Below, one piece after another: positions 2,078 to 26,941 of a stretch of DNA of 33,947 bases. The translations under genes were made by a program, and so were the position numbers. The notes beneath the pieces were generated by a model. It searched no databases. It was not told the origin of the DNA and was given only the letters and a program-made list of their open reading frames with translations. This DNA comes from a virus: IMG/VR virus record IMGVR_UViG_3300030419_006406, positions 1-33,947 of that record, one strand, 5' to 3'. Within the stretch, counting starts at the first letter, position 1, and each line of letters starts with the position of its first letter.

Positions 2078-4528
2078 TTAACCGCATTTAGCGTATCCAC
2101 AATAAGAACAGGTGACGCAGCCGTCTTGATAAACTAAAGCATTCTCTGTGCTGCACTGTGGGCAGGCCTTATCTGAGTATGCCTTTTCACCGTTCTGGAT
2201 GTAATTTTTGAGAATTCTTGCTACGCATCTCGAAAAACTGAACATGTCACTGTCCTTATCTTTTTGTAATTGTTCGACCAAAAAACTTGGCTTTGCGCCA
2301 TGGCGGAGAGAAAGCGAAATCATGCGAGTGAAGGCCGAGTTATTGGGATTATCGAAGAGTTTTACCACATCCCTAACAACCATTTCATCTCCATTTTTAC
2401 CTACCCTCAGATCATAACGGTTATCTTTCGTTTTGAACCTAATTTTGGTCAACTCACCCTTTGTCAGACTTTTTGGAATCTCAATCAAGTTTGAAAGACC
2501 TCCCATAACCTCATATGGTCGGCCTTCCAACAACCCAACAAGGACTGTCCATTTTTCCCCCTTAATAGTGGTGTGGTGAATATCACATTCAACAATTTCT
2601 GGTCTTGGGAAAGCTTGTGAAGATGAAAACTCCTTTGTGCTCTCGTCATTTGTCACGAGGACTCCTGAACGTGAGCCATCGACGTATACCGTAATACCTT
2701 TTAGGCCCATCTCCCATCCCAAAAAGTATAATTCAGCAACCGTAGCGGGGTCTGTGCCTTTTGGCAAATTAATTGTAGAGCTAATCGAATGATCCACGCT
2801 TTTTTGAATTGCCGCCTGGATATGCACCCTTTTCTTCCAGTCGATCTGGTCGCTGGTCACAAAGAAGTCGGGTAGAGAGTCTGGCGATTCTGTCCTCGTT
2901 GAACCAACGGTTTCTAGCCACTCTCTAACATTGTGGTGAAACACCTTGTACTCCAACCAACGATCTCCCAACTCGTCGACGAAATCAGCTTCAATGTTTG
3001 CCTCGTCGTGTGAAAGTTTTCTCCTTCTGGTATAACTGTTTCTAAAAACGGGCTCCAGACCAGAGGATGACTGAGATAAAATAGATACACTGCCAGTGGG
3101 GGCATTTGTCAAAATGGAAATGTTACGTCTTCCAAATCTCGAAATTTTGTCCCGCAAAATTTTTGGCAATCTTGAAATATAAGAATTCGATTTCTCTGTG
3201 TCCCAGTCAAAAACGGGGAAGGCTCCTCTCTCTTGGGCTAGTTCAACACTCTCTCCATAAGAAGCGACCTTTAGAGTTTCATAAATCTTTTCAATCTCTT
3301 TCAAAGCCTCTGGGCTGTCGTATCTTAAGTTTAAGCTCGCAATTGCATCTGCTAGGCCATGGGTACCCAGACCAGTTCTCCGGCCGTTCTTGCAGGCTTC
3401 TAGAAGCTTAGACCACATGTGTTTCTCGTCCTTTGCGTCACAAACCCCAATAATCTTCTCTAGTTTCTCAATCTCCAATTCAACCAAGTCGTCCGACAGT
3501 CTCATCCCAGCTGATATCACTTCGGCAAACTTATCATAATCAAACTTTGCTTCACCTGTGAACTTGTTGACAACAAGATTCTTGAGGTTAATTGAAATTA
3601 GCCTACAAGAGTCGTATGCTGACAATGGGATCTCACCGCAGGGGTTAGTTGTCAGTGTTTTAAATCCTTTGTCTGAATACTCGTTGGCTGGCAGGTTTTT
3701 TAAGATATTATCCCACATCATCAAGCCAGGTTCTGCAGTCTTCGTGGCCGACTCTACAATCTGGTTCCAAAGTTCGTTTGCATCAATCTCTTTCTCGTGT
3801 TTGGGATCCTCAGATTCAACTGGGTATCTGAGAGTGAATTTTTCTTTGTTTTTGACAGCCTCCATGAATTCATCGCTAATTTTGACCGATACGTTTGCTC
3901 CCGTAACTTTCGTCAAGTCGTGCTTCATCGTCACGAAGCTTTCGATGTCTGGGTGTCTCACATCCATGGTGACCATTAGGGCTCCGCGCCGGCCGTTCTG
4001 ACCAATCATCCTACACACGTACGAATAGAAATCAGCAAACGACCAGGCCCCGGTAGTGGTGCCAGCAGAGTTATTAACTGGAGTGCCATCTGGCCGGAGA
4101 CAAGAAATGTCTAAGCCGACGCCGCAGCGCCGTTTAAACAAGTTAGCTAGCTCTTTGCCAGAATCCATAATGGAAGACACATTGTCTTCCGGAGATTCGA
4201 CAACGACGCAGTTCGACAATGACACATTAACGTGATCATTGCCGATCCCCATCATTGGAGAGCCTTGCGGGACAATATATTTAAAGTCCTTCAAAAAGTC
4301 GTAAATCTTTTTCTCCGACAGGCTTCTGTCCCCTCCGAAGGTTTTTTCGATGCGAGCGAACTCTTTGGCTAGTCTCTTGTGCATCTGGTCTGGTGTTTTT
4401 TCAACCAGCTCTCCAGACTTGTTTTTTAGAGCATACTTAGTAACCCATACATTGGCAGCGAGTTCGTCTCCATTAAAATATTCTAGTGCTGCCTGCTCAA
4501 CTTCTTCTTTTGCGTATTTTGTAGTCAT
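2078..4528 (-). CDS. nrdJ: Class II (adenosylcobalamin-dependent) ribonucleotide reductase
   Basis: This 816-aa enzyme reduces ribonucleotides to deoxyribonucleotides for phage DNA synthesis. The N-terminal RNR domain is followed by the barrel with LSNCVVV (redox C107), GVGLDIS, NGRRGALM and NPCGEIPL (N295, thiyl C297, E299). DSCRL gives the partner C308. Further on come APTGSVSILS and the TSCPD-like region (EVMGGLSNLIEI). The C-terminus is a zinc-ribbon-like Cys cluster (CPQC, then CVTCSYCGYAKCG) typical of B12-dependent NrdJ, which supplies the shuttle cysteines. No N-terminal ATP cone is obvious. No separate small subunit is present, as expected for class II. The start overlaps the helicase stop as ATGA. 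The class is well supported by motifs and architecture. Confidence 0.93.
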   Translation of the reverse strand: MTTKYAKEEVEQAALEYFNGDELAANVWVTKYALKNKSGELVEKTPDQMHKRLAKEFARIEKTFGGDRSLSEKKIYDFLKDFKYIVPQGSPMMGIGNDHVNVSLSNCVVVESPEDNVSSIMDSGKELANLFKRRCGVGLDISCLRPDGTPVNNSAGTTTGAWSFADFYSYVCRMIGQNGRRGALMVTMDVRHPDIESFVTMKHDLTKVTGANVSVKISDEFMEAVKNKEKFTLRYPVESEDPKHEKEIDANELWNQIVESATKTAEPGLMMWDNILKNLPANEYSDKGFKTLTTNPCGEIPLSAYDSCRLISINLKNLVVNKFTGEAKFDYDKFAEVISAGMRLSDDLVELEIEKLEKIIGVCDAKDEKHMWSKLLEACKNGRRTGLGTHGLADAIASLNLRYDSPEALKEIEKIYETLKVASYGESVELAQERGAFPVFDWDTEKSNSYISRLPKILRDKISRFGRRNISILTNAPTGSVSILSQSSSGLEPVFRNSYTRRRKLSHDEANIEADFVDELGDRWLEYKVFHHNVREWLETVGSTRTESPDSLPDFFVTSDQIDWKKRVHIQAAIQKSVDHSISSTINLPKGTDPATVAELYFLGWEMGLKGITVYVDGSRSGVLVTNDESTKEFSSSQAFPRPEIVECDIHHTTIKGEKWTVLVGLLEGRPYEVMGGLSNLIEIPKSLTKGELTKIRFKTKDNRYDLRVGKNGDEMVVRDVVKLFDNPNNSAFTRMISLSLRHGAKPSFLVEQLQKDKDSDMFSFSRCVARILKNYIQNGEKAYSDKACPQCSTENALVYQDGCVTCSYCGYAKCG

Positions 4529-5904: not shown

Positions 5905-6183
5905 CTAGTGTCCGCATCGGACACACTCCTTTTCAAAAGAAACCCACCGACAAGAATAGTCGTCAACCAGACAATATGTATCGAGATGATGAGGGCAATG
6001 CGCGCTCAAGGGTGTGTTTTGGTAAAACGTACAGCAAGCACCTTCGCAATACTGCAATGAGCTTGCTGGTAAAGGTAGGTCGCATGTATAATCATAAAGT
6101 CTGTTATGATAACGTACAGGGCGAACCAGACACCCCTGTAACAACATCATTAAAATTACTATTGATAAAATTTTGTTTTTCAT
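5905..6183 (-). CDS. Small Cys-rich lipoprotein
   Basis: This 92-aa protein starts with a textbook lipoprotein signal: basic KNK, hydrophobic ILSIVILMM, then lipobox LLQGC. It should be lipidated and anchored in a membrane. The roughly 75-residue mature part contains about 10 cysteines, including a vicinal pair (GACC), which suggests a disulfide-stabilised periplasmic domain. A longer frame exists, but its extra residues (MEVTGSSPVGRT) are read from the tRNA gene, so I choose the ATG at 6183. The ribosome site is weak. It lies 24 nt after the tRNA and directly before the helicase. Phage lipoproteins of this size include superinfection-exclusion proteins and outer spanins; which applies here is unknown. 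Confidence 0.7.
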   Translation of the reverse strand: MKNKILSIVILMMLLQGCLVRPVRYHNRLYDYTCDLPLPASSLQYCEGACCTFYQNTPLSAHCPHHLDTYCLVDDYSCRWVSFEKECVRCGH

Positions 6184-6206
6184 TTCTTGCTTTGTTTTTG
6201 TTAATT

Positions 6207-6283
6207 TGGTACGCCCGACTGGACTTGAACCAGTGACTTCCACCTTATAAGAGTGGCGTTCTAACCTACTGAACTACGGGCGT
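6207..6283 (-). tRNA. tRNA-Ile, anticodon UAU (reads AUA)
   Basis: A full cloverleaf folds by eye on the minus strand. The 7-bp acceptor is ACGCCCG/CGGGCGT and the D stem is GTTC/GAAC. The anticodon stem is CCACT/GGTGG with one G-U pair, and its loop is CTTATAA (anticodon TAT). The T stem is ACTGG/CCAGT with loop TTCAAGT. The discriminator A and CCA end are encoded (6207-6210). AUA is normally read in bacteria by a modified CAU tRNA, so a phage UAU tRNA would supplement reading of AUA codons, which occur in nearby phage genes. It lies just downstream of a strong promoter. Confidence 0.93.
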
Positions 6284-11569: not shown

Positions 11570-11881
11570 TTATTCTTCTACAGATAGCAAGATAACCTTA
11601 TCAACAAAGGCGCCTTTCTCGTCAGACTTGGCACTCATACATTCAATCAGTTCATCTTGCGTATAGCCAAATGCATCGACTATCGCACTAAACACTTCAA
11701 AAATGTCTGCTAATTCTTCGAGAGTCGAGTCTTTAATAAACTCGTTGGTTTCTTCCTTTAATTTTTGTTTTAACAGCTCTTTGTACTCATCCTCATCAGC
11801 GTACCTAACAGTAAAGGTTTTACCTTCTGCAGTCAGGATGCCTGGAATCTTATCTCTTACTAATTTATTGTATACTTTCAT
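11570..11881 (-). CDS. MazG/HisE-like NTP or phosphoribosyl-ATP pyrophosphohydrolase
   Basis: This 103-aa all-alpha protein begins YNKLVRDKIPGIL, the hallmark of a HisE-like family common in phages and plasmids. It carries the metal-binding pairs EExxE (43-47) and ExxD (56-59, in LEELADIFEVF) of the MazG superfamily. It likely hydrolyses a nucleoside triphosphate or related nucleotide to the monophosphate, either cleaning the dNTP pool or tuning ppGpp-type signals. The true substrate cannot be read from sequence. It overlaps the DNA polymerase gene by 4 nt (ATGA) and is followed within 1 nt by the FtsZ-like gene. Confidence 0.8.
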   Translation of the reverse strand: MKVYNKLVRDKIPGILTAEGKTFTVRYADEDEYKELLKQKLKEETNEFIKDSTLEELADIFEVFSAIVDAFGYTQDELIECMSAKSDEKGAFVDKVILLSVEE

Positions 11882-13062
11882 ATTTTTAACCTCTTCATAT
11901 CTCCAAAATTTTTACCTGCTGATATATTCACTTTAAAGCTCCCTAGTTCTGTATCTGAAAAGATCTTTTTAACCTCGGGAATCATATATCGTTCATCGTC
12001 GCAAAAATCAATTACAAGACTGTCGTGAATAGAAAAACTTATGCTTGATTTTTTATCTTTTAAAAATTCGTGCACCTTAATCATTCTCCTCAAAAACAAA
12101 TCACTAGTTGTACTTTGTATTATATAATTCAAGGCGTGATGTTTATCAGCAGCAATAATTCTACCATAAAACGTATGTATTTGTTCACCGTCCCAGTGTT
12201 TTTTTAGGACGGAATCGCGATCATAAGTCTTGTTGGATTTGCTGTCTTTTGACTCTGGGTTGTAAAGCCAGGCGAACACCCTCTTCTTTGCTTCGTCTCT
12301 TGTCATCTTACCACCATACACATGCTTGGCATTCCAATTATGAATGTCCTCTAGAGGCTGTTCTTTATCGGACAGAGCTAGAAGGGTGCGAAGTTCTGCT
12401 GCGTTAAAGTCAAACTCCACGAACCAGTCATTATTTGGCTTTATCACTTTTCTATACTCTTTTGCCAAAGTTAAAATAGGAAAGCTGTGCTTTTTTGTGG
12501 TGAGCCGGCCAGTCTTTGTGCCAAATACATCATATTTTATGTAGGGTGAAGTCTTCTGGATCTTATCTTTTATTTGTCTTACCTTGAAATCATAAATCTT
12601 TTTATTCATCGGAGTTAAATCGATCTTAAGTTTCTGAAATGAAATATCATTTATAACCGATTGCAAAGATAAGAGAAAGTCATAATTTGAAGGCCTCTCA
12701 TATTTGTCAAAAACATGTTCTGTGATTCTGTTTTTAACATCACAAAAGTCTAGAAGAAATCTTTCAGGAACTAAATCAAAAAAGCAGTTCTCATTTAAAT
12801 CGACCTTTGCTTCCTTGAAGGATCTCATAAAAGCTCTGAGCTTGTTTGAAACGTCTTCCCACTGCTCCTTTAGCAGGTCTGGGCAAGCGGCCCCAGGATT
12901 ATCCGTACCACAGTAGAGATTAGCAAAGTCGATATCTTGTCCAGCCAGATAGCCGGCGAAAGACCAAGTTCTAGTGAGACTGTCAGAAAGTTCCTTATGA
13001 ATTTGTCCATTATGATATACTCCTACGCACTCTTTTTTATCGTCTAAAGTCTGAAATAGCAA
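11878..13062 (-). CDS. Short family A DNA polymerase without exonuclease domain
   Basis: This 394-aa protein covers only a Pol I-type polymerase domain. TGRLTTKKHSFPIL corresponds to the TGRLSS region. Motif A is EFDFNAAELR (D218, E223). Motif B is RDEAKKRVFAWLYNP (R255, K259, F263, Y267). LNYIIQSTTSDL precedes motif C, SIHDSLVIDF (H346, D347). Motif C ends HDS rather than HDE, and motif B has FAWLYN in place of FGxxYG. Both catalytic aspartates remain. No 3'-5' exonuclease domain fits in the roughly 160 residues upstream, so proofreading would need another gene. The start is TTG at 13062 with a weak GAGAAG site, so the exact N-terminus is uncertain. It follows the last structural gene. Confidence 0.85.
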   Translation of the reverse strand: MLFQTLDDKKECVGVYHNGQIHKELSDSLTRTWSFAGYLAGQDIDFANLYCGTDNPGAACPDLLKEQWEDVSNKLRAFMRSFKEAKVDLNENCFFDLVPERFLLDFCDVKNRITEHVFDKYERPSNYDFLLSLQSVINDISFQKLKIDLTPMNKKIYDFKVRQIKDKIQKTSPYIKYDVFGTKTGRLTTKKHSFPILTLAKEYRKVIKPNNDWFVEFDFNAAELRTLLALSDKEQPLEDIHNWNAKHVYGGKMTRDEAKKRVFAWLYNPESKDSKSNKTYDRDSVLKKHWDGEQIHTFYGRIIAADKHHALNYIIQSTTSDLFLRRMIKVHEFLKDKKSSISFSIHDSLVIDFCDDERYMIPEVKKIFSDTELGSFKVNISAGKNFGDMKRLKI

Positions 13063-19159: not shown

Positions 19160-21571
19160 TTAAGTTGGCGCAACTCTTACATCGCCATTCTCTTGAATAA
19201 TCTGAAGAACAGTTTGAGCAAGGGCTCGACCACCAGCGTTAAAGTTAATTGGCTGATTGATAACCTTTTGTGGAGGTTGGATCCTCATACCACCGCCTCC
19301 GCCGCCGCCGGCTCCGGTTGAAACCATCATGTTTGTTATTGCTTGGGCGCCGGCCATTTGTACATTAACTGAAGCCTTTGCGTAATCTTCTGCTGCTCGT
19401 GCAATCTGAACCGCATGAGTGGCATCTGCTGCCTCTACATTTGCTGTAGTTCTAACCATGTTAGAGAACATATTAACTGTTTGTGCTGCTTCAGGCCCAA
19501 TCTCTTTCAATTTGTCTGCTGCGCGGACAACATTTTCAAATCCTGATACTTGCATACCAAAAACAAATCCTCTGGTCGCGCCTTCGACGCTCTTCATGGC
19601 TGATCCGAGGGCACCAAGCTGTTGAATTGCTCCACCGCTTGCAAGGTTACGAATCGAACCGGCAGCTTGGTTAACCTTGTTGCTAAAAGAAGTTAGCCCG
19701 CCAGCGGATGATCGTAATTTTGAAAGGCCGACGGCTGCAGTGTCGGAAGCGGCTCCCATAGATTGTAGGCCGCTAGCGAAAATAGAGGGTAGCTGAAAAG
19801 CTGGTGGTGAATTTTCTTCCGTTAGGGCATCCGTAAGATAATAGATCCCTGCAGCGACGAGGCCTATCGGACCTAGGAGAGCCACACTAGACATTCTCAT
19901 GGCGGTGAAGGCCGCTGTTAGAGCCTTGGCTGCGGATGTTACTTTGATGATACCAGCGGCTATGAGACCAAGTTGCGCAATAGTTTGACCTGCAGTGCTT
20001 CCTAAGAAAGTTGACAAGCCATTAATTATACCTGTGATGCGACCGATCAGCGGTTCCATGCTCACAGCTAATTTCATCATTGCCAATCTAAGATTTTCGC
20101 CCATAGTTTTTGTACGCTGCCCTAACTCAACAAGATCTGCCTGTCTTGCTGCGGCGCGGGTGGCTTCGGCCTGAAATTGATTCAAGGAACTATTAAAGAA
20201 CTTTTGAGCCTCGCCAACTGACCTAAAACCGGCTGCGGCCGTTAAGGCTTTTCTTTCATACCTGCTCAAAGATTCGAACGACCTTCCGGAAAGTTGCAAA
20301 GATTGGTGCAGTTGTGCCATCCTTTGACTTTCTGTCGCATAAACCATCTTAATGCTGTTCAAATATGGCCCGCCTAAAATACCATTTAGTCTCCCTACTG
20401 CGTTTGCAGACCCTTCAAATGTATCAAACTGTCCCGCAACATTTACCAAGTCTTGCATCGCGATGTTTGTTGCACGGGATTGTGCTGCCAATTGAGTGAA
20501 AACCGAATTCATTTGATTACCGTGCGCGGCGAGGGTTGGCGCTAGCGCATTAAATTGGCTTATCGCGGAGTTCACGTTCATGTTAAGGGCTTGGGCCATG
20601 TTGACTAGTCCACTGGTTGCTCTCTGTGCTGCAGCGGAAGACATGCGCATATTGTTGGTAAAAAATTCTAGCGCAGAAACGGTTCCACGAGTGTCGACCC
20701 CGGCTTCTGTCATTTTTGCAGCGAAAACAGTTAGTTCAGTTCTAGCGCCTTCTGTCGCTCCTTTGAACGCCAACATATTGTTGTAAAGTTCAGCTTGTGC
20801 TGCGCCAGCAGATCTGAAGTCTAGCCCCAGTTCTTTAAGTTGGCGGGAGGCACCCATCAAAGAGCCGTTTAAACGCTCAGAAGCGCCTGTAGAGCGCACA
20901 AACTGTGCTCTTAAAGCATCTTGTGCTACGAGCAACTGTTCGGTCGCTGAGGCGACTGGGCCGGCCATACCAATAGCTGCAGCCTTAAACATACCAAATT
21001 TGCTAGCTCCTTGATCTAAGCTAGATATAATTGAATTTAATTGAAACGCAATTCCACCAACTGAATTGGCAATGCCGCCCATGACGGTTTGATTAAATGT
21101 TGTACCAAGGCCGGCAGCACCAGCAATTTTAGATGTCATATTGCTGAATGCTGCGGCTTGTTCTGCTAATTTAGTAGTTGACTGATTTTGGAGAACTAGT
21201 TGTTCGCGCATGCTGCGCTTGACCGCATCATGGGAACTTAAAATTAAGTTAAGTTGGGCTTTCTTTTGTTCTAGCGTATTAACTTCGCTTTGACTATATT
21301 CAGCGCTAGCTTTGGTCTTAGCTATTTTTTCATCTATTTTGGCGACTTGTTCTCTGAGTACCTCGGCTTCAGATTGTAAGAGCGCGATCATATTCTGTCT
21401 TGACTGAACAATGGTCTGCTGTTGGCTTAGCCCCTTTTGGAGCAGCGTTTGTTGTTTACCCAACTCTGCGGCAGCTTCAGCTTGTTTCTTTATTGTCTCT
21501 TCTAGGGCTAAATTAAAAGCTTCCTGAAGTTTATTAAGCTGAGCTTGCTGTTCTGGGGTTAAGTTTGCCAT
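19160..21571 (-). CDS. Tail tape measure protein
   Basis: This 803-aa protein has a long coiled-coil N-terminus (about 1-150, rich in Q, A, E, K) and long Ala/Ser/Asn/Gln-rich helices. It also has a hydrophobic membrane-like region (about 515-590, with LGLIAAGIIKVTSAAKAL and VALLGPIGLVAAGIYYL). A glycine cluster follows near 765-772. These are hallmarks of tape measure proteins, which fix tail length, are packed inside the tube and help DNA pass the inner membrane. At about 1.5 angstrom per residue the tail would be near 120 nm. It lies downstream of the tube gene and the proposed frameshifted chaperone, the canonical order. The sequence is not close to T4 gp29 by eye. Confidence 0.82.
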   Translation of the reverse strand: MANLTPEQQAQLNKLQEAFNLALEETIKKQAEAAAELGKQQTLLQKGLSQQQTIVQSRQNMIALLQSEAEVLREQVAKIDEKIAKTKASAEYSQSEVNTLEQKKAQLNLILSSHDAVKRSMREQLVLQNQSTTKLAEQAAAFSNMTSKIAGAAGLGTTFNQTVMGGIANSVGGIAFQLNSIISSLDQGASKFGMFKAAAIGMAGPVASATEQLLVAQDALRAQFVRSTGASERLNGSLMGASRQLKELGLDFRSAGAAQAELYNNMLAFKGATEGARTELTVFAAKMTEAGVDTRGTVSALEFFTNNMRMSSAAAQRATSGLVNMAQALNMNVNSAISQFNALAPTLAAHGNQMNSVFTQLAAQSRATNIAMQDLVNVAGQFDTFEGSANAVGRLNGILGGPYLNSIKMVYATESQRMAQLHQSLQLSGRSFESLSRYERKALTAAAGFRSVGEAQKFFNSSLNQFQAEATRAAARQADLVELGQRTKTMGENLRLAMMKLAVSMEPLIGRITGIINGLSTFLGSTAGQTIAQLGLIAAGIIKVTSAAKALTAAFTAMRMSSVALLGPIGLVAAGIYYLTDALTEENSPPAFQLPSIFASGLQSMGAASDTAAVGLSKLRSSAGGLTSFSNKVNQAAGSIRNLASGGAIQQLGALGSAMKSVEGATRGFVFGMQVSGFENVVRAADKLKEIGPEAAQTVNMFSNMVRTTANVEAADATHAVQIARAAEDYAKASVNVQMAGAQAITNMMVSTGAGGGGGGGMRIQPPQKVINQPINFNAGGRALAQTVLQIIQENGDVRVAPT

Positions 21572-21582
21572 TTATTTGGCCC

Positions 21583-21924
21583 TCAATTTAAAGGCCAACG
21601 CAATCCGGTCTGAGATTCGAACTGTCTGATAGCTCCGTCGAGTCTTTGTGCGCTGCCCCAAGTATATGGGTTATTAAGACCCAAACGATAATAATTCTGG
21701 AGATAGTTGGCTTCCGAGGCGATGGCGTTCAAGAAAGAATTAACCTCCTTCTGGGCCCCTGTAACTTGTAAGGCGCCTGAGGCTCCGCTCAATATCTTTT
21801 CTAAGGCTAAAGCGATTTGACCACCAAAGGATTCTAAATAAACTTCATTAAGTTTTTTTTCCTTTAAGGCGTTTAAATCAATTTTAATTTTATCTGAAAG
21901 TTTTTCTTCTTTGAGGTTTTGCAT
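21583..21924 (-). CDS. Small hypothetical protein before the tape measure gene
   Basis: This 113-aa protein has a charged, lysine/glutamate-rich helical start (KEEKLSDKIKIDLNALKEKK), a small-residue segment (LSGASGALQVTGAQKEV) and an aromatic C-terminus (YRLGLNNPYTWGSAQRL). It is placed between the tail chaperone region and the tape measure gene, 11 nt upstream of the latter. A chaperone or minor tail role is possible from position only. A candidate late motif lies 23 nt before its ATG; the ribosome site is poor. Confidence 0.65.
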   Translation of the reverse strand: MQNLKEEKLSDKIKIDLNALKEKKLNEVYLESFGGQIALALEKILSGASGALQVTGAQKEVNSFLNAIASEANYLQNYYRLGLNNPYTWGSAQRLDGAIRQFESQTGLRWPLN

Positions 21925-21964: not shown

Positions 21965-22192
21965 TTATTTTTGGAAGTTTTTGGTATCACGAGTAACCTT
22001 ATCCATCTCGTCTTTTTCCATCTTAAGTTGTTCTGTTAATTTATCAACAAACCATTCCCTTAATTTAATAGGAAGATTGTAAGCTTCCGTGAAGCTCCAA
22101 CCACCATAATATTTCAAATAAAAGAATTGTTCATACACCGTCTCGGTGTACTTCTCACTTAGGCCAAAAAAAGTCCGCCGTGAACGGCAGAG
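21965..22192 (-). CDS. Out-of-frame tail chaperone extension, probably reached by ribosomal frameshift
   Basis: This reading frame is open from 22192 to a TAA at 21965-21967 and has no ATG. It overlaps the last 38 nt of the gp26-like gene in the +1/-2 frame. Its coding part (YEQFFYLKYYGGWSFTEAYN, then LPIKLREWFVDKLTEQLK) looks like the second domain of tape-measure chaperones, with the 'Y-G-W-S-x-x-E-x-x-x-L-P' pattern. A T7 run at 22166-22172 in the overlap allows tRNA-Phe to re-pair perfectly after a +1 or -2 slip, giving a fusion of about 346 aa. The only internal start is GTG at 22138 (57 aa), and it has no clear ribosome site. Alternatively this is a separate small protein. Confidence 0.65.
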   Translation of the reverse strand, partial: LCRSRRTFFGLSEKYTETVYEQFFYLKYYGGWSFTEAYNLPIKLREWFVDKLTEQLKMEKDEMDKVTRDTKNFQK

Positions 22193-23006
22193 CTACCTCC
22201 TCTCTATGAGAACATGCTGGACATGTGAAGTGTTGATTTAGATCAACGTTCGGCATAATACTGGTATAAACATTTCTAATGTGATGAGAATCCAGCGCGG
22301 GCATGACATCAATAAAAGAATTAATTGTATTGGGGCCTGCGTCTCCATTGACAGAAACGATCATTAAGCCAAACTGGTCAGTTAGTACCGCTTCCGGTAA
22401 ATTATGCTTGCGACGACGCTCAGCTAACTCCATTAATTTCTTTTCATCAGCGCTTGTCAAGAGGCGAAGCTCTAGTTTAACTTTTGATACTGGTAGATCT
22501 AAAATAAAAGTGCCATTTTCGGTTTCTGATGTGTCTTGACTTGCGGGAGACTTGCCGTGGTCGGCTTTCGTTTCAGTCAAGTCGAAAGTATAATTGACAA
22601 CCGAGGCGCATGCTGGGCATGAAATCTTTGTTTCATATCTTGGTCCATATCCTGTGACTCGCGCAGCAACGATGAGAGCGTTCTTATCCCCAACAAGCAG
22701 GTCATCAACATTGATTTCCTTATTGACGATAATGTTTTGTAGCATTCTTTCAATCGCCACGCCCTTCCTCAGGAGAGACTGAGACGTTAAAATGTCTTCG
22801 TCCTTTGCTGTCATGTACCTTATCTCAATCGTGTCGACGCCGTACAAAGGATGGTTCTCTGGGTAATATTTCCCACGAGAGGGCAAGTCTACAATTTCGG
22901 TCGGTGTAGCAAAACTGAACGTGTTACCGCCTGGTTGTTCTATAATGGGAGGAGGTGGAGCCGGCTGTCTGGCGCCGGTGCGGTCCTCGTTATTTCTGGC
23001 TGTCAT
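22155..23006 (-). CDS. gp26-like baseplate/tape-measure chaperone protein with two CPxC motifs
   Basis: This 283-aa protein has a disordered Pro-rich start (ARQPAPPPPIIEQPGG) and then the family-typical EIVDLPSRGKYYPENHPL. IEIRYMTAKDEDILTSQSLL and GKPVAIER-like helix patterns resemble the T4 gp26 baseplate family. Two CPxC pairs (C130/C133 and C262/C265) probably bind one zinc ion. It lies between the tail tube and tape measure genes, where tail assembly chaperones sit. The last codons before its TGA are GAC TTT TTT TGG CCT AAG, with a slippery T7 run that could redirect ribosomes into the overlapping frame. The start is supported by GAGGT. I favour a chaperone for the tape measure; T4 literature names the family a hub subunit. 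Confidence 0.75.
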   Translation of the reverse strand: MTARNNEDRTGARQPAPPPPIIEQPGGNTFSFATPTEIVDLPSRGKYYPENHPLYGVDTIEIRYMTAKDEDILTSQSLLRKGVAIERMLQNIIVNKEINVDDLLVGDKNALIVAARVTGYGPRYETKISCPACASVVNYTFDLTETKADHGKSPASQDTSETENGTFILDLPVSKVKLELRLLTSADEKKLMELAERRRKHNLPEAVLTDQFGLMIVSVNGDAGPNTINSFIDVMPALDSHHIRNVYTSIMPNVDLNQHFTCPACSHREEVALPFTADFFWPK

Positions 23007-23066: not shown

Positions 23067-23582
23067 TTAAGCTTTAGTGAATTGCGCGAAATCGTATCTA
23101 ATTTCCATGCTGATGTCCAACATCGCGTCGGAATCGTAAGCAAGGCTTCCGAACTTCACACTCTTAACCCAAGGATTAAAAAATCTCCAAGTTTCAATGA
23201 GTGTATCGTTGGCGCCGCGTTGTTCAATTCGGACTTGTGGACCCAAAGCATCAACTGCTTCAGCTTTAGAAATAGTAGCGAGACCTCCAGATTGTAATTG
23301 ACCCTCTGGTGCGGCATATCCTGATCTTCTGAGCATATTCAGGATTCTTTGTGAAGTATCGGGGTTGACGGGATCTACCAAGGTAACATTAATCGAATCC
23401 CAACTTAACTGCCCGGGATAATAAAAATAATGTCCGTAGAAGTTATGAGATGATTCATTAATAGAAAAGCCTGGTTTGTCAACCGATTTGATTACAAATT
23501 CAGGGATTGTGGAATTGCTTGCAAAAAACAAAAACCGATGTGAACGTTTTGGTTCTAAAGTACTGTCTGTCCAAAATGACAT
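23067..23582 (-). CDS. Tail tube protein, gp19-like
   Basis: This 171-aa protein has the size and beta-sandwich pattern of myovirus tube subunits. It starts with FWTDSTLEPKRSHRFLFF (the T4-like 'P-x-R-x-x-R-F' start). VIKSVDKPGFSI and LSWDSINVTLVDP follow, and the C-terminus has FFNPWVKSVKFGSLAYDSDA then ISMEIRYDFA. These fit the gp19 family: hexameric rings around the tape measure protein, inside the sheath. It follows the sheath gene directly, the usual order. The ribosome site AAAGGAG is strong, and a motif variant (23604-23612) lies 21 nt before the start. The call is secure. Confidence 0.88.
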   Translation of the reverse strand: MSFWTDSTLEPKRSHRFLFFASNSTIPEFVIKSVDKPGFSINESSHNFYGHYFYYPGQLSWDSINVTLVDPVNPDTSQRILNMLRRSGYAAPEGQLQSGGLATISKAEAVDALGPQVRIEQRGANDTLIETWRFFNPWVKSVKFGSLAYDSDAMLDISMEIRYDFAQFTKA

Positions 23583-23635: not shown

Positions 23636-26600
23636 TTAATCTGCGAATGATGCTCCCGAATCTGTGATTACAAAATCAAGTGCAATAAATTCAATTGCTT
23701 GTGCTGGCTTCAAGAAGATTTTTGCATACAAGATATTTCTATCAACCAACTCAGGCGTGGTAGTGGTTTCGTCTAGTACGACTTTGTAGTCAACTAAACC
23801 TTGGCCACTTTTAATATTGGACAACAATGTCTCAACTTGGCCAGCGAATTTGTTCCACGTTGCTTGCACGTTTTGTTCAAACAATGTGGTCGCTGCAATT
23901 CTAGAAACTTGTTTCTTAATCAAAAGCAACAAGCGGCGTACGTTGATCCTGTCCAGGGCAGAAGGCGTCACTTGAAGAGTCTTTTGTCCAAAGACGACGA
24001 CACCCTCGGCAGGGAACGATGCGATAGGATTGATATTTGCAGCATAAAGGTCATCTCGCTCCTCTGAGGTGAGTTGCAATTTAACACCTGTTACTGGTAG
24101 ACCTGCTGCGCCGGCGGAGAGTCCACCACGGGTGAATCCTGCTGGGGCGAACCAAACTTCGCGGACAGCCTCGCTGTATGCCAAAGTACCCAAGGCGACG
24201 ACGGAGGGTGGAACGTACACAAGCCTATTGGCGTTAGTATCCCTAATTTGAACAAAGGGGTAATAAGCCGCTGCGTAGCTAGAGTTAATTTGTCGGCTTT
24301 TCAAATTGTTAACCGTTGTAATAACATTCGGTCGATTAGTGGCCTCTGTGCTGGTGTTCTCATGAGGGGGAACATAGTCGCCCTCAAGATCAACAATGGC
24401 CATACAATCGGCTCTGTCCTCACATGTTTCAATTAAATGATCTGTAAGGGCAGAATTTGTGATACCTGGCAAGACGGCCAAGTTAATATCGACAACCTCG
24501 GGATCCTTGATTGTATCAATCGCTCTCTTTACTGAGTAGAAAGCATAGTTTCCAACCTCGGTACCATTAGTCATGAAAGTGTTCCTGAAAGGATCTTTTT
24601 CCGTGATATCTAAGCCATCTGTGCCACCGTGGAAAACGGTGGTAAATTTATTATAGCCTAGACCAGAACCCGTAAGGAGGGTGCTAGAGCCAGACGTCGA
24701 CGTAATTGAACCATTATCGCTACCGCCGGTTGTTCCACCAGTAAAAGCTGAAGGCACATTAGTGCTGCAGTTAGCATCCCAGTTCGTTTGATTACTCAAA
24801 GTAATAGTGGTGTTGCCACTTGTGCCGGCAGTCCCTTGTGTCAAAGTTACTTGACCGGTCGCAGGGTTCGCTGCTGCAATGTTTAAAGAAGAAGCATTGA
24901 TCGCATTTACCAAAGCTGTGGCGAAGCCTGCTGCGCCGGAGCCGTCTACTGCGGTGTTGGTACCTGATGCCCCGTCGCCAGTATCGTCAACCTCAAAAAC
25001 TACCGAAGTTGAGGCTGCGTCAGTCAACGTTATTGTGGTTTCTTCATTTGGCTTATCACTGAAAGTCCAGGTTGCTGTGGCCTTTTCATTCGAATGAGAG
25101 GCTCTAGAACCCGAAATATATTGAATTAAGCCGCCATCATTGCGGTCTGCGATATCATCAAGAGAAAATACATAAGAATACTCTACACTAGTGGTATCAT
25201 CATCAGCGTCCAGGGTGCCGGGTAGTGGACGCAATACATCAAAAACACTCTTATCTAGCTTAGCAGATCCGGACTTCCCTAGGTCAACACCCCAGTACTG
25301 ATTGCTTTGCTTATCCATGCGGTTTTGACGACCATCATGCTTCAAAGGAAGAATCGGGAACATGTAGGACGATGTAGAATATGGTGGAAATTGTGGTTCG
25401 CGGCAATTTAAGTTATCTATATCTAAGGGGGTTTCGCCATCTCCCTTGATAAAGCAAGCGTGACCCAAAGCATCAAGCTCAGTTACATTAGTAATCGAAC
25501 TAACATCCTTGACTTTTGGAGCCCCAAAGAAACCAAACGGAAGCAGTTCTGCTGCTGTGGCGCCGGCGGCAACCTCTGTGTTCATTTCGACATAGACATA
25601 TCTAGAAATATTATCATAATCACCATAGTGGCGATATCTTCTTTCAGTTTCATCCCAAATTTGATGTTTGTCGCCAACCTTTCTAGCCACATAATTTTCA
25701 GAATTAGGGTTCAACGAACAATTGGTGAACTTTTCGATAAAGCGGACTGCCTTGTCAGTGTCTTCTACCTTTCTAATTGCAACAGTAAAGGTGCCAAAAG
25801 GATCAGATTTGTTAGAAGAAGGTTTGATATCCTGGATTGAAACCTTGAGGTTTCTTTGAGTCCATTCACCGTGCTCTCTAGCAATAAGCCTGAAAAGTTT
25901 TTGCTGATCAGCTGGTTTATAATTCGCGGGCGAGCCTAGGTCTTGGCCAATGAACCACCCAGTTCGTGCTTTGGTGGCTGGGCGCTGGTGGTCTGCCCAT
26001 TCAATTGCAGAGGCTCCTTGTGAAGAAAGACCGAGAATTACACCATGAGTAACATCGTTCAAGCTGGTGAGCTTCCCGCGTTGATGGCCAGGATATTCTT
26101 CGGCCAACAGGCTACGTTCAAAACTTTCTCCTAGGAAGTAGTTTTTATATGCAGTGCCGGTGCTGGAAACAACGTCGCTGTTTGTAACAATTGGATTAGT
26201 ATTAAACACTTTTCTAATATAATTGTCGGAATTCTCATCAAAATTGAAAACAACCTTTTCGGCCGTGCCGGCACGAACAGTAGCTTTAGTGCCAATAAGT
26301 GCTGTGAATTCTGCGCTTTTATTAGCAGAAGAGGTTGCGATTGAGACAGCCATAGATGCTGTGGTTTGGTTGGGCGCATCATAATCATCGCTGAAACCCT
26401 GCTCGACTGCACCTGTAAGAGCGATCAAGCTGCCAGCGTTCATTGCATAGAAGACCGCTCCAAGATTCCATGTTTGGGTACCATTGGACTGGGAGTTCAT
26501 CAAAAACAGGCCATAAGCTCCACCTTTGTTTACTGATCCTCCGCCAGCGCCAACGGATTCGGCAACGTTGCCAGCATCCCAGCCGGCGTTTTGATCGCCG

Positions 26601-26941
26601 TCTCCAGAAGTTCTATTAGAAGAGTGCTCGCCATGCAGCCTTAAGATGGTCGCGGGCGACTGATTTCTAAGCCACGCTTGCGCAGCGTAGCCAGCATAAG
26701 TTGGAGAGGAATAATTACCCTCTCTATAAACATCACCTGCCCTGCCTCCCGGCATTGGTTCTCCAAATATTTCTACGTACTCGGAAAATGAATTTACTGT
26801 GACCGGAATCATTCCGGGGCCTTTTTCTGTTCTACCAATAATCACCGGGCCTGGTGGTAGGCCAACTCCTGGAAGCTGGGAGTTGTCGATCTCTTCTAGG
26901 AAGATACCGGGTGAAACAAATCTAAACTTTTTTTCAGCCAT
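23636..26941 (-). CDS. Contractile tail sheath protein, gp18-like, with large inserts
   Basis: This 1101-aa protein starts with FVSPGIFLEEIDNSQLPG and PPGPVIIGRTEKGPGMIPV, diagnostic of T4-type sheath proteins. It ends with the conserved C-terminal handshake domain (RLVYVPPSVVALGTLAY, AAGLPVTGVKLQLTSEERDD, NPIASFPAEGVVVFGQKTLQ, INVRRLLLLIKKQVSR). It is much longer than T4 gp18 (659 aa). The extra mass includes a Ser/Thr/Gly-rich segment at about 615-760 with TITLTDAASTSVVFEVDDTG and TGQVTLTQGTAGTSGNTTIT, which reads as an exposed beta-sandwich domain seen in many marine phage proteins. The sheath contracts to drive the tube through the envelope. The start has an AAAGGAGA site, and a late motif lies 43 nt upstream. 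Confidence 0.92.
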   Translation of the reverse strand: MAEKKFRFVSPGIFLEEIDNSQLPGVGLPPGPVIIGRTEKGPGMIPVTVNSFSEYVEIFGEPMPGGRAGDVYREGNYSSPTYAGYAAQAWLRNQSPATILRLHGEHSSNRTSGDGDQNAGWDAGNVAESVGAGGGSVNKGGAYGLFLMNSQSNGTQTWNLGAVFYAMNAGSLIALTGAVEQGFSDDYDAPNQTTASMAVSIATSSANKSAEFTALIGTKATVRAGTAEKVVFNFDENSDNYIRKVFNTNPIVTNSDVVSSTGTAYKNYFLGESFERSLLAEEYPGHQRGKLTSLNDVTHGVILGLSSQGASAIEWADHQRPATKARTGWFIGQDLGSPANYKPADQQKLFRLIAREHGEWTQRNLKVSIQDIKPSSNKSDPFGTFTVAIRKVEDTDKAVRFIEKFTNCSLNPNSENYVARKVGDKHQIWDETERRYRHYGDYDNISRYVYVEMNTEVAAGATAAELLPFGFFGAPKVKDVSSITNVTELDALGHACFIKGDGETPLDIDNLNCREPQFPPYSTSSYMFPILPLKHDGRQNRMDKQSNQYWGVDLGKSGSAKLDKSVFDVLRPLPGTLDADDDTTSVEYSYVFSLDDIADRNDGGLIQYISGSRASHSNEKATATWTFSDKPNEETTITLTDAASTSVVFEVDDTGDGASGTNTAVDGSGAAGFATALVNAINASSLNIAAANPATGQVTLTQGTAGTSGNTTITLSNQTNWDANCSTNVPSAFTGGTTGGSDNGSITSTSGSSTLLTGSGLGYNKFTTVFHGGTDGLDITEKDPFRNTFMTNGTEVGNYAFYSVKRAIDTIKDPEVVDINLAVLPGITNSALTDHLIETCEDRADCMAIVDLEGDYVPPHENTSTEATNRPNVITTVNNLKSRQINSSYAAAYYPFVQIRDTNANRLVYVPPSVVALGTLAYSEAVREVWFAPAGFTRGGLSAGAAGLPVTGVKLQLTSEERDDLYAANINPIASFPAEGVVVFGQKTLQVTPSALDRINVRRLLLLIKKQVSRIAATTLFEQNVQATWNKFAGQVETLLSNIKSGQGLVDYKVVLDETTTTPELVDRNILYAKIFLKPAQAIEFIALDFVITDSGASFAD

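Follow-up and report, generated by a model that had tools for sequence, protein, structure and literature searches.

Gene organization of the locus

The sequence analysed here, hereafter the window, is a stretch of 33,947 nucleotides from a marine phage (IMG/VR virus record IMGVR_UViG_3300030419_006406, positions 1 to 33,947). Its tail genes follow the order sheath, tube, ORF1/ORF2 and tape measure, an arrangement that is also found in isolated phages:

23636..26941, minus strand: tail sheath protein, 1101 aa (Pfam Phage_sheath_1C and Phage_sheath_1; phrog_23, E 9e-67)
23067..23582, minus strand: tail tube protein, upstream neighbour of ORF1 (phrog_4542 tail tube, E 2e-19)
22155..23006, minus strand: ORF1, a "G-like" protein of the T4 gp26 family (T4_baseplate, PF12322), 283 aa
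22164..22172, minus strand: putative slip site TTT TTT TGG, with the T7 run at 22166-22172
21965..22165, minus strand: ORF2, the "T-like" domain after a +1 shift (GLSEK...NFQK), 66 aa, stop at 21965-21967
21965..23006, minus strand: predicted ORF1-ORF2 frameshift product ("GT-like"), 346 aa
21583..21924, minus strand: 113-aa ORF between ORF2 and the tape measure gene, without a family match in Pfam or PHROG
19160..21571, minus strand: tape measure protein, 803 aa (phrog_167 tail length tape measure, E 2.3e-7)

On the minus strand, the 3' end of ORF1 reads GAC TTT TTT TGG CCT AAG TGA, with its stop TGA at 22155-22157. The frame of ORF2, which is +1/-2 relative to ORF1, is free of stops from 22192 to 21965 and overlaps ORF1 by 38 nt; after the proposed slip it comprises 66 codons, the first of them GGC CTA AGT (G-L-S) at 22165. 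The chance that 63 random codons of the local composition would be stop-free is about 0.007. No ATG occurs near the start of ORF2 in the window, where a GTG at the VYE codon, not kept as a start codon among relatives, is the sole candidate nearby. A sequence-only reading of the window had described this overlap, its T7 run and coordinates, and an ORF2 of 66 codons after the slip without an ATG, all of which held.

Some other features of the window deserve mention on their own. The Pfam sheath domains span only residues 808-1093 of the sheath protein (23636-26941), and its long N-terminal part remains mostly without assignment. The 113-aa ORF at 21583-21924 is possibly another tail assembly factor. 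Farther away, a 394-aa ORF with a TTG start (11878-13062) matches only positions 967-1234 of the 1445 in phrog_17 (DNA polymerase family) and may be part of a split polymerase gene. A tRNA-Ile gene with anticodon TAT (6207-6283, minus strand) overlaps the 5' end of the ORF at 5905-6243.

The open +1 frame among relatives

A scan of viral contigs yielded 80 relatives of the window, with ORF1 identities of 48-88%, which constitute the near clade. Two further clades were gathered using proteins of Microcystis phage Mel-JY01 and Flavobacterium phage immuto as queries, and the three +1 clades together amount to 145 non-redundant representatives at 90% identity. Of the distinct ORF1s in the near, second and third clades, 61/62, 67/67 and 63/63, respectively, have a +1 frame that stays open past their stop, and in those 61 of the near clade this frame encodes the same YGGWSF-EAYNLP domain as ORF2 of the window. 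The +1 overlap is also present in 11 relatives within bacterial assemblies. The overlap itself is thus shown to be widespread and not peculiar to the window, and hundreds of relatives appear to share it. In the public records examined, the second ORF is either annotated as a short separate gene or missing altogether. Differences among ORF2 sequences fall mostly in the third codon position (7246, 3531 and 13166 at positions 1, 2 and 3), and this concentration indicates that ORF2 is evolving as a protein.

The sole exception in the near clade (L012, around 3830-3870) carries a T8 run (GAT TTT TTT TGG); its ORF2 lies in the -1 frame, and the T TTT TTT site is perfect. An indel from assembly could explain this difference, as could a recent change in the direction of the frameshift. 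Three other candidate exceptions (L078, L216 and L245) were rejected as artefacts of picking the longest frame, all three being +1. As a separate observation, one relative of the window clade (L339) lies inside a 2.85 Mb contig labelled as a WOR-3 chromosome, either as a prophage or through an assembly mix-up.

The putative slip site and entry into the +1 frame

The slip codons of the 145 representatives are TTT TTT TGG, TTC TTT TGG (4), CTT TTT TGG (3), TTT CTT TGG (19), a few TAC variants and one CTA. In 144 of them, the P-site codon is TTT or CTT, followed by the T of TGG or TAC, so that all but the CTA representative are compatible with +1 re-pairing in the P site (YTT to TTT). Only at the slip codons is the third position of the zero frame invariant or almost so. 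The direction of the shift can be inferred from natural variation, because TTC TTT TGG (4/54 representatives) and TTT CTT TGG (19/36 of the immuto clade) allow only +1 re-pairing in the P site. It is possible that the latter slips one codon earlier (TTT to TTC), with the direction still +1. The sequence-only reading had left a +1 or a -2 shift open, and these codon variants favour +1. It had also proposed an alignment of homologues, in which the overlap and the YTT-T slip codons prove to be conserved and the frames stay open, while the full T7 run is not invariant.

The residues read in the +1 frame just after the slip are Gly-Leu in 141/145 representatives and Thr-Leu in 3/145 (144/145 together), including six sequences where zero-frame Val or Thr replaces Pro; across the junction, G281-L282 is invariant in 61/61 aligned fusions. 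Moreover, the zero-frame Pro codon at the junction is CCT in 35/36, 23/23 and 12/12 of the 70% clusters of the three clades, against a background of 24-44% CCT elsewhere in the same genes (p 1e-20, 2e-12 and 5e-5). Related sequences are not independent, and these p-values overstate the case. Since Gly-Leu and CCT are kept under protein-level selection at this point, it can be inferred that reading passes into the +1 frame at the slip and does so before reaching the ORF1 stop. This selection ahead of the stop is the strongest single argument for frameshifting, as reinitiation cannot account for it.

No conserved Shine-Dalgarno sequence was found next to the +1 site among relatives, nor did 27 relatives show a convincing RNA structure after the slip (consensus energy -0.5 kcal/mol), so that no stimulator was identified at the +1 site.

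Protein families and folds of ORF1 and ORF2

ORF1 meets the threshold for membership of PF12322 (E 2.2e-16, 60.6 bits against a cut-off of 24.5, residues 40-281) and also matches PHROG 150 (baseplate hub, E 1.6e-18). The structures of ORF1 and ORF2 were predicted apart, not as a fusion. In the AlphaFold2 model of ORF1 (pLDDT 86.7), residues 22-125 found as the top two of 919 PDB chains (VIA-align) the protein YqbN (3klu, Z 6.0), known as a tail assembly chaperone of the PBSX/XkdN type, and 2ob9, the tail assembly chaperone of HK97 (Z 5.7); a Z of 4.3 came third, and unrelated folds started from 3.3. For this aligner, Z values under 8 may show only a common arrangement, and values near 6 are modest, while Foldseek gave only weak support for chaperone folds (E 0.5, prob 0.57). 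The Z values alone are unconvincing, but the identity of the top matches agrees with gene order. The lambda-type tail assembly chaperone families in Pfam gave no match up to E 1 in scans of ORF1 and of the ORF2 family, and no solved structures matching ORF1 or ORF2 by sequence were found.

ORF2 was modelled by AlphaFold2 as a three-helix domain (pLDDT 91), for which the fold search listed no useful match. Among 71 members of its family, 52 match DUF6760 (PF20546) at E<=1 (best E 2e-5), and ORF2 of the window itself reaches 15.5 bits, with a cut-off of 27. On such weak matches, ORF2 may be regarded as a small helical domain related to DUF6760. Both domains occur above their cut-offs and in a single frame, PF12322 followed by DUF6760, in a 255-aa ORF (L352, 859-1626) from a genome sampled within the same phylum as a Winogradskyella assembly, a protein that represents a natural in-frame version of the proposed fusion.

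Two side observations concern these bacterial loci. The 255-aa ORF might belong to a contractile injection system or a prophage, and in another bacterial locus (L351, 644-1652) a tube-like gene precedes one for a small protein that may contain a zinc ribbon, which a DUF6760 ORF with no clear start codon then overlaps in another frame.

Predicted frameshift layouts in other phages

A +1 layout is also present in the isolates Streptococcus phage GXN1, Bacillus phage SP-15 and Listeria phage LIS04, and a -1 layout with T TTT TTT A in the jumbo phages Xanthomonas XacN1 (L089, 4740-4992) and Stenotrophomonas RAS14 (L090, 4730-4980), the exact slip codon being putative in all of them. A search of viral contigs with XacN1 ORF1 gave no relatives, and searches with SP-15 and Rhizobium IC12 returned near-identical records only, which precluded a conservation test of their slip sites. 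A shared NCC CGA motif was seen shortly before the stop in GXN1 (L084, 4685-4994), SP-15 (L085, 4715-4952) and LIS04 (L086, 4660-4918), and these three phages perhaps slip at the CGA codon instead of at Phe.

In T4-like cyanophages, a small ORF annotated as gp51 ("gp51 hub assembly catalyst") lies in the -1 frame in 55/55 distinct ORF1s. The 3' end of their gp26 gene carries T TTT TTC in 20/20 representatives (L092, L097-L176), with the first T fixed though its codon varies (AGT, GAT, TCT, AAT), and a Shine-Dalgarno-like GGAGG with conserved third positions lies 9-10 nt upstream. From dnaX, it is known that a GGAGG at such a spacing stimulates -1 shifts. The second ORFs of these phages also have an ATG just past the ORF1 stop. 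A -1 frameshift is predicted for T4-like cyanophages, where separate initiation of the second ORF is not excluded.

Alternative explanations

The alternative that survives best, though we consider it unlikely, accepts the frameshift as real but takes its product as a virion structural protein of the baseplate hub and not as a tape-measure chaperone. The "baseplate hub" label of the ORF1 family speaks for it, together with older T4 genetics that put gp26 in the hub, reviewed as contradictory (PMC3004832). Against it, the gene sits between tube and tape measure, the ORF1 fold matches tail assembly chaperones, and the same review also lists gp26 and gp51 as hub assembly chaperones. A chaperone role for ORF1 and the fusion is likely, albeit inferred, with no data on binding or product.

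Much less probable is that ORF2 is a separate gene whose translation begins past the ORF1 stop through reinitiation or translational coupling, for instance from the GTG of VYEQ. The window does have this GTG a few codons past the stop, and some ATG occurs within 14 codons of the stop in 21/52 near-clade representatives. However, relatives do not keep a common start position, 77 of the 141 +1-clade representatives scanned (about half) lack any ATG, GTG or TTG within reach of the ORF2 start, and the +1-frame Gly-Leu ahead of the ORF1 stop is under selection. The sequence-only reading had named homologues with an ATG and no overlap as its refutation; within the +1 clades the overlap is kept and there is no conserved start position.

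A -2 ribosomal frameshift on the T7 run, similar to that of phage Mu and giving a product with one extra Phe, is equally hard to sustain. The run in the window would let tRNA-Phe re-pair after a -2 slip, but the P-site tRNA cannot re-pair at -2 on TTC TTT TGG or TTT CTT TGG, and the frame is kept in relatives with such sites. Finally, transcriptional slippage, in which the RNA polymerase would add or drop bases on the seven consecutive Ts found in the window and most relatives, is practically ruled out by the persistence of the frame with only T4 (TTC TTT T) or T3-C-T3 (TTT CTT T).

A model for a probable +1 frameshift in a likely tail assembly chaperone gene

A programmed +1 frameshift in a tail assembly chaperone gene is by far the best explanation of these data and very likely the right one, an inference from comparative genomics. 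The same grounds lend strong support to the fusion that the sequence-only reading predicted between the tail tube and tape measure genes, although the fusion protein has not been observed.

In the proposed model, most ribosomes would halt at the TGA at 22155 and release the 283-aa gp26-family protein (G-like). A minority would slip one base forward when the peptidyl-tRNA-Phe on TTT (22167-22169) faces TGG; the tRNA-Phe would re-pair with the overlapping TTT, GGC would replace TGG in the A site, and +1 reading would go on for 66 codons to give a 346-aa G-T fusion. The roles expected from the lambda analogy are coating of the tape measure protein by the G part and recruitment of tail tube subunits through the T domain. 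The frame, position and +1 direction are inferred from comparison, whereas efficiency, stoichiometry and binding partners rest on analogy only. For the window sequence, the expected tryptic junction peptides are EEVALPFTADFFWPK without a shift, EEVALPFTADFFGLSEK after a +1 shift and EEVALPFTADFFFGLSEK after a -2 shift.

Implications for T4 gp26 and gp51

Both gp26 and gp51 of T4 match PF12322 over the full profile (8.8e-64 and 3.9e-52, respectively). T4 gp51 is longer at its C terminus by about 48 residues, and the C-terminal part of the protein matches phrog_634, to which the second ORF of cyanophages belongs (cyanophage ORF2 against the gp51 tail, hhalign E 2e-5). The direct profile match between ORF2 of the window and the T4 gp51 tail is not significant, so the link between them runs via the cyanophage ORF2. 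In whole-genome searches, two PF12322 genes were found in T4 and in Acinetobacter phage Stupor, and one in 14/16 other records. Only Mel-JY01 and immuto are left, which score below the PF12322 profile and were found by direct protein similarity. Phages with the predicted frameshift thus have at most one PF12322 gene. The simplest reading, well supported though still inferential, is that T4 makes G (gp26) and an in-frame GT (gp51) from duplicated genes.

A bolder reading, which we consider likely when taken as a whole, is that the gp26/gp51 family represents the missing G/GT of T4-type contractile tails, that lineages have switched between +1 and -1, and that T4 swapped the frameshift for a duplication. 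The suggestion of the sequence-only reading that gp26 and gp51 are tape-measure chaperones finds support in gene order, a modest fold match and the paralogy of both proteins. The idea is not wholly new, since in the GenBank record of phage Stupor the name "tape measure protein assembly chaperone" is already given to gp26, gp51 and gp28, and a review of the T4 tail lists gp26 and gp51 as hub assembly chaperones, gp51 being essential and of unknown function (PMC3004832). A recoding review of 2016 described G-T frameshifting as widely conserved "except T4" (PMC5009743), and no report of a frameshift in gp26-family genes was found in the open-access literature searched, where most subscription journals are absent. 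If true, the bolder reading would explain both T4 as an apparent exception to the frameshift rule and the role of the essential gp51. Testable roles would then be available for gp26 and gp51, with the same protein output kept through +1 shifts, -1 shifts and duplication.

Comparison with known systems

Regarding +1 recoding, the site of prfB (release factor 2) is known to be CTT TGA C, and the CTT TGG C of the immuto clade is one base off it. The window-type site differs in that it has no adjacent Shine-Dalgarno sequence and presents a Trp codon, not a stop, in the A site. Among tail genes, the HSTV-2 chaperone frameshift is reported as very likely +1 (PMC5009743), and that of phage Mu is known to be -2. 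Both systems resemble the window in having frameshifts other than -1 in the equivalent gene, without any established sequence relation, and a Mu-type -2 shift is disfavoured in the window clade, since its slippery site fails -2 re-pairing in the TTC TTT TGG and TTT CTT TGG members.

T4-like cyanophages share with the window a single PF12322 gene whose stop is spanned, in another frame, by a small ORF, but they combine a predicted -1 shift at T TTT TTC with an upstream Shine-Dalgarno sequence and an ORF2 ATG, whereas a +1 shift is predicted for the window. In the case of T4, ORF1 belongs to the same Pfam family PF12322 as gp26 and gp51, and gp51 consists of this domain plus a C-terminal extension, although two separate genes and no frameshift are involved.

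The lambda gpG/gpGT pair and the window both combine a short protein with a frameshift-extended form, which in the window is predicted, encoded between the tube and tape measure genes, and they possibly share an N-terminal fold through the HK97 chaperone. Lambda shifts by -1 and the window by a predicted +1, and ORF1 has roughly double the length and includes a zinc-ribbon-like region. The window clade, with its inferred +1 shift, departs from the -1 shift on a slippery heptamer, and -1 appears only in distant members. The direction of the shift varies between phages (PMC5009743), and it bears on whether the system is lambda-like, not on whether it works like G/GT.
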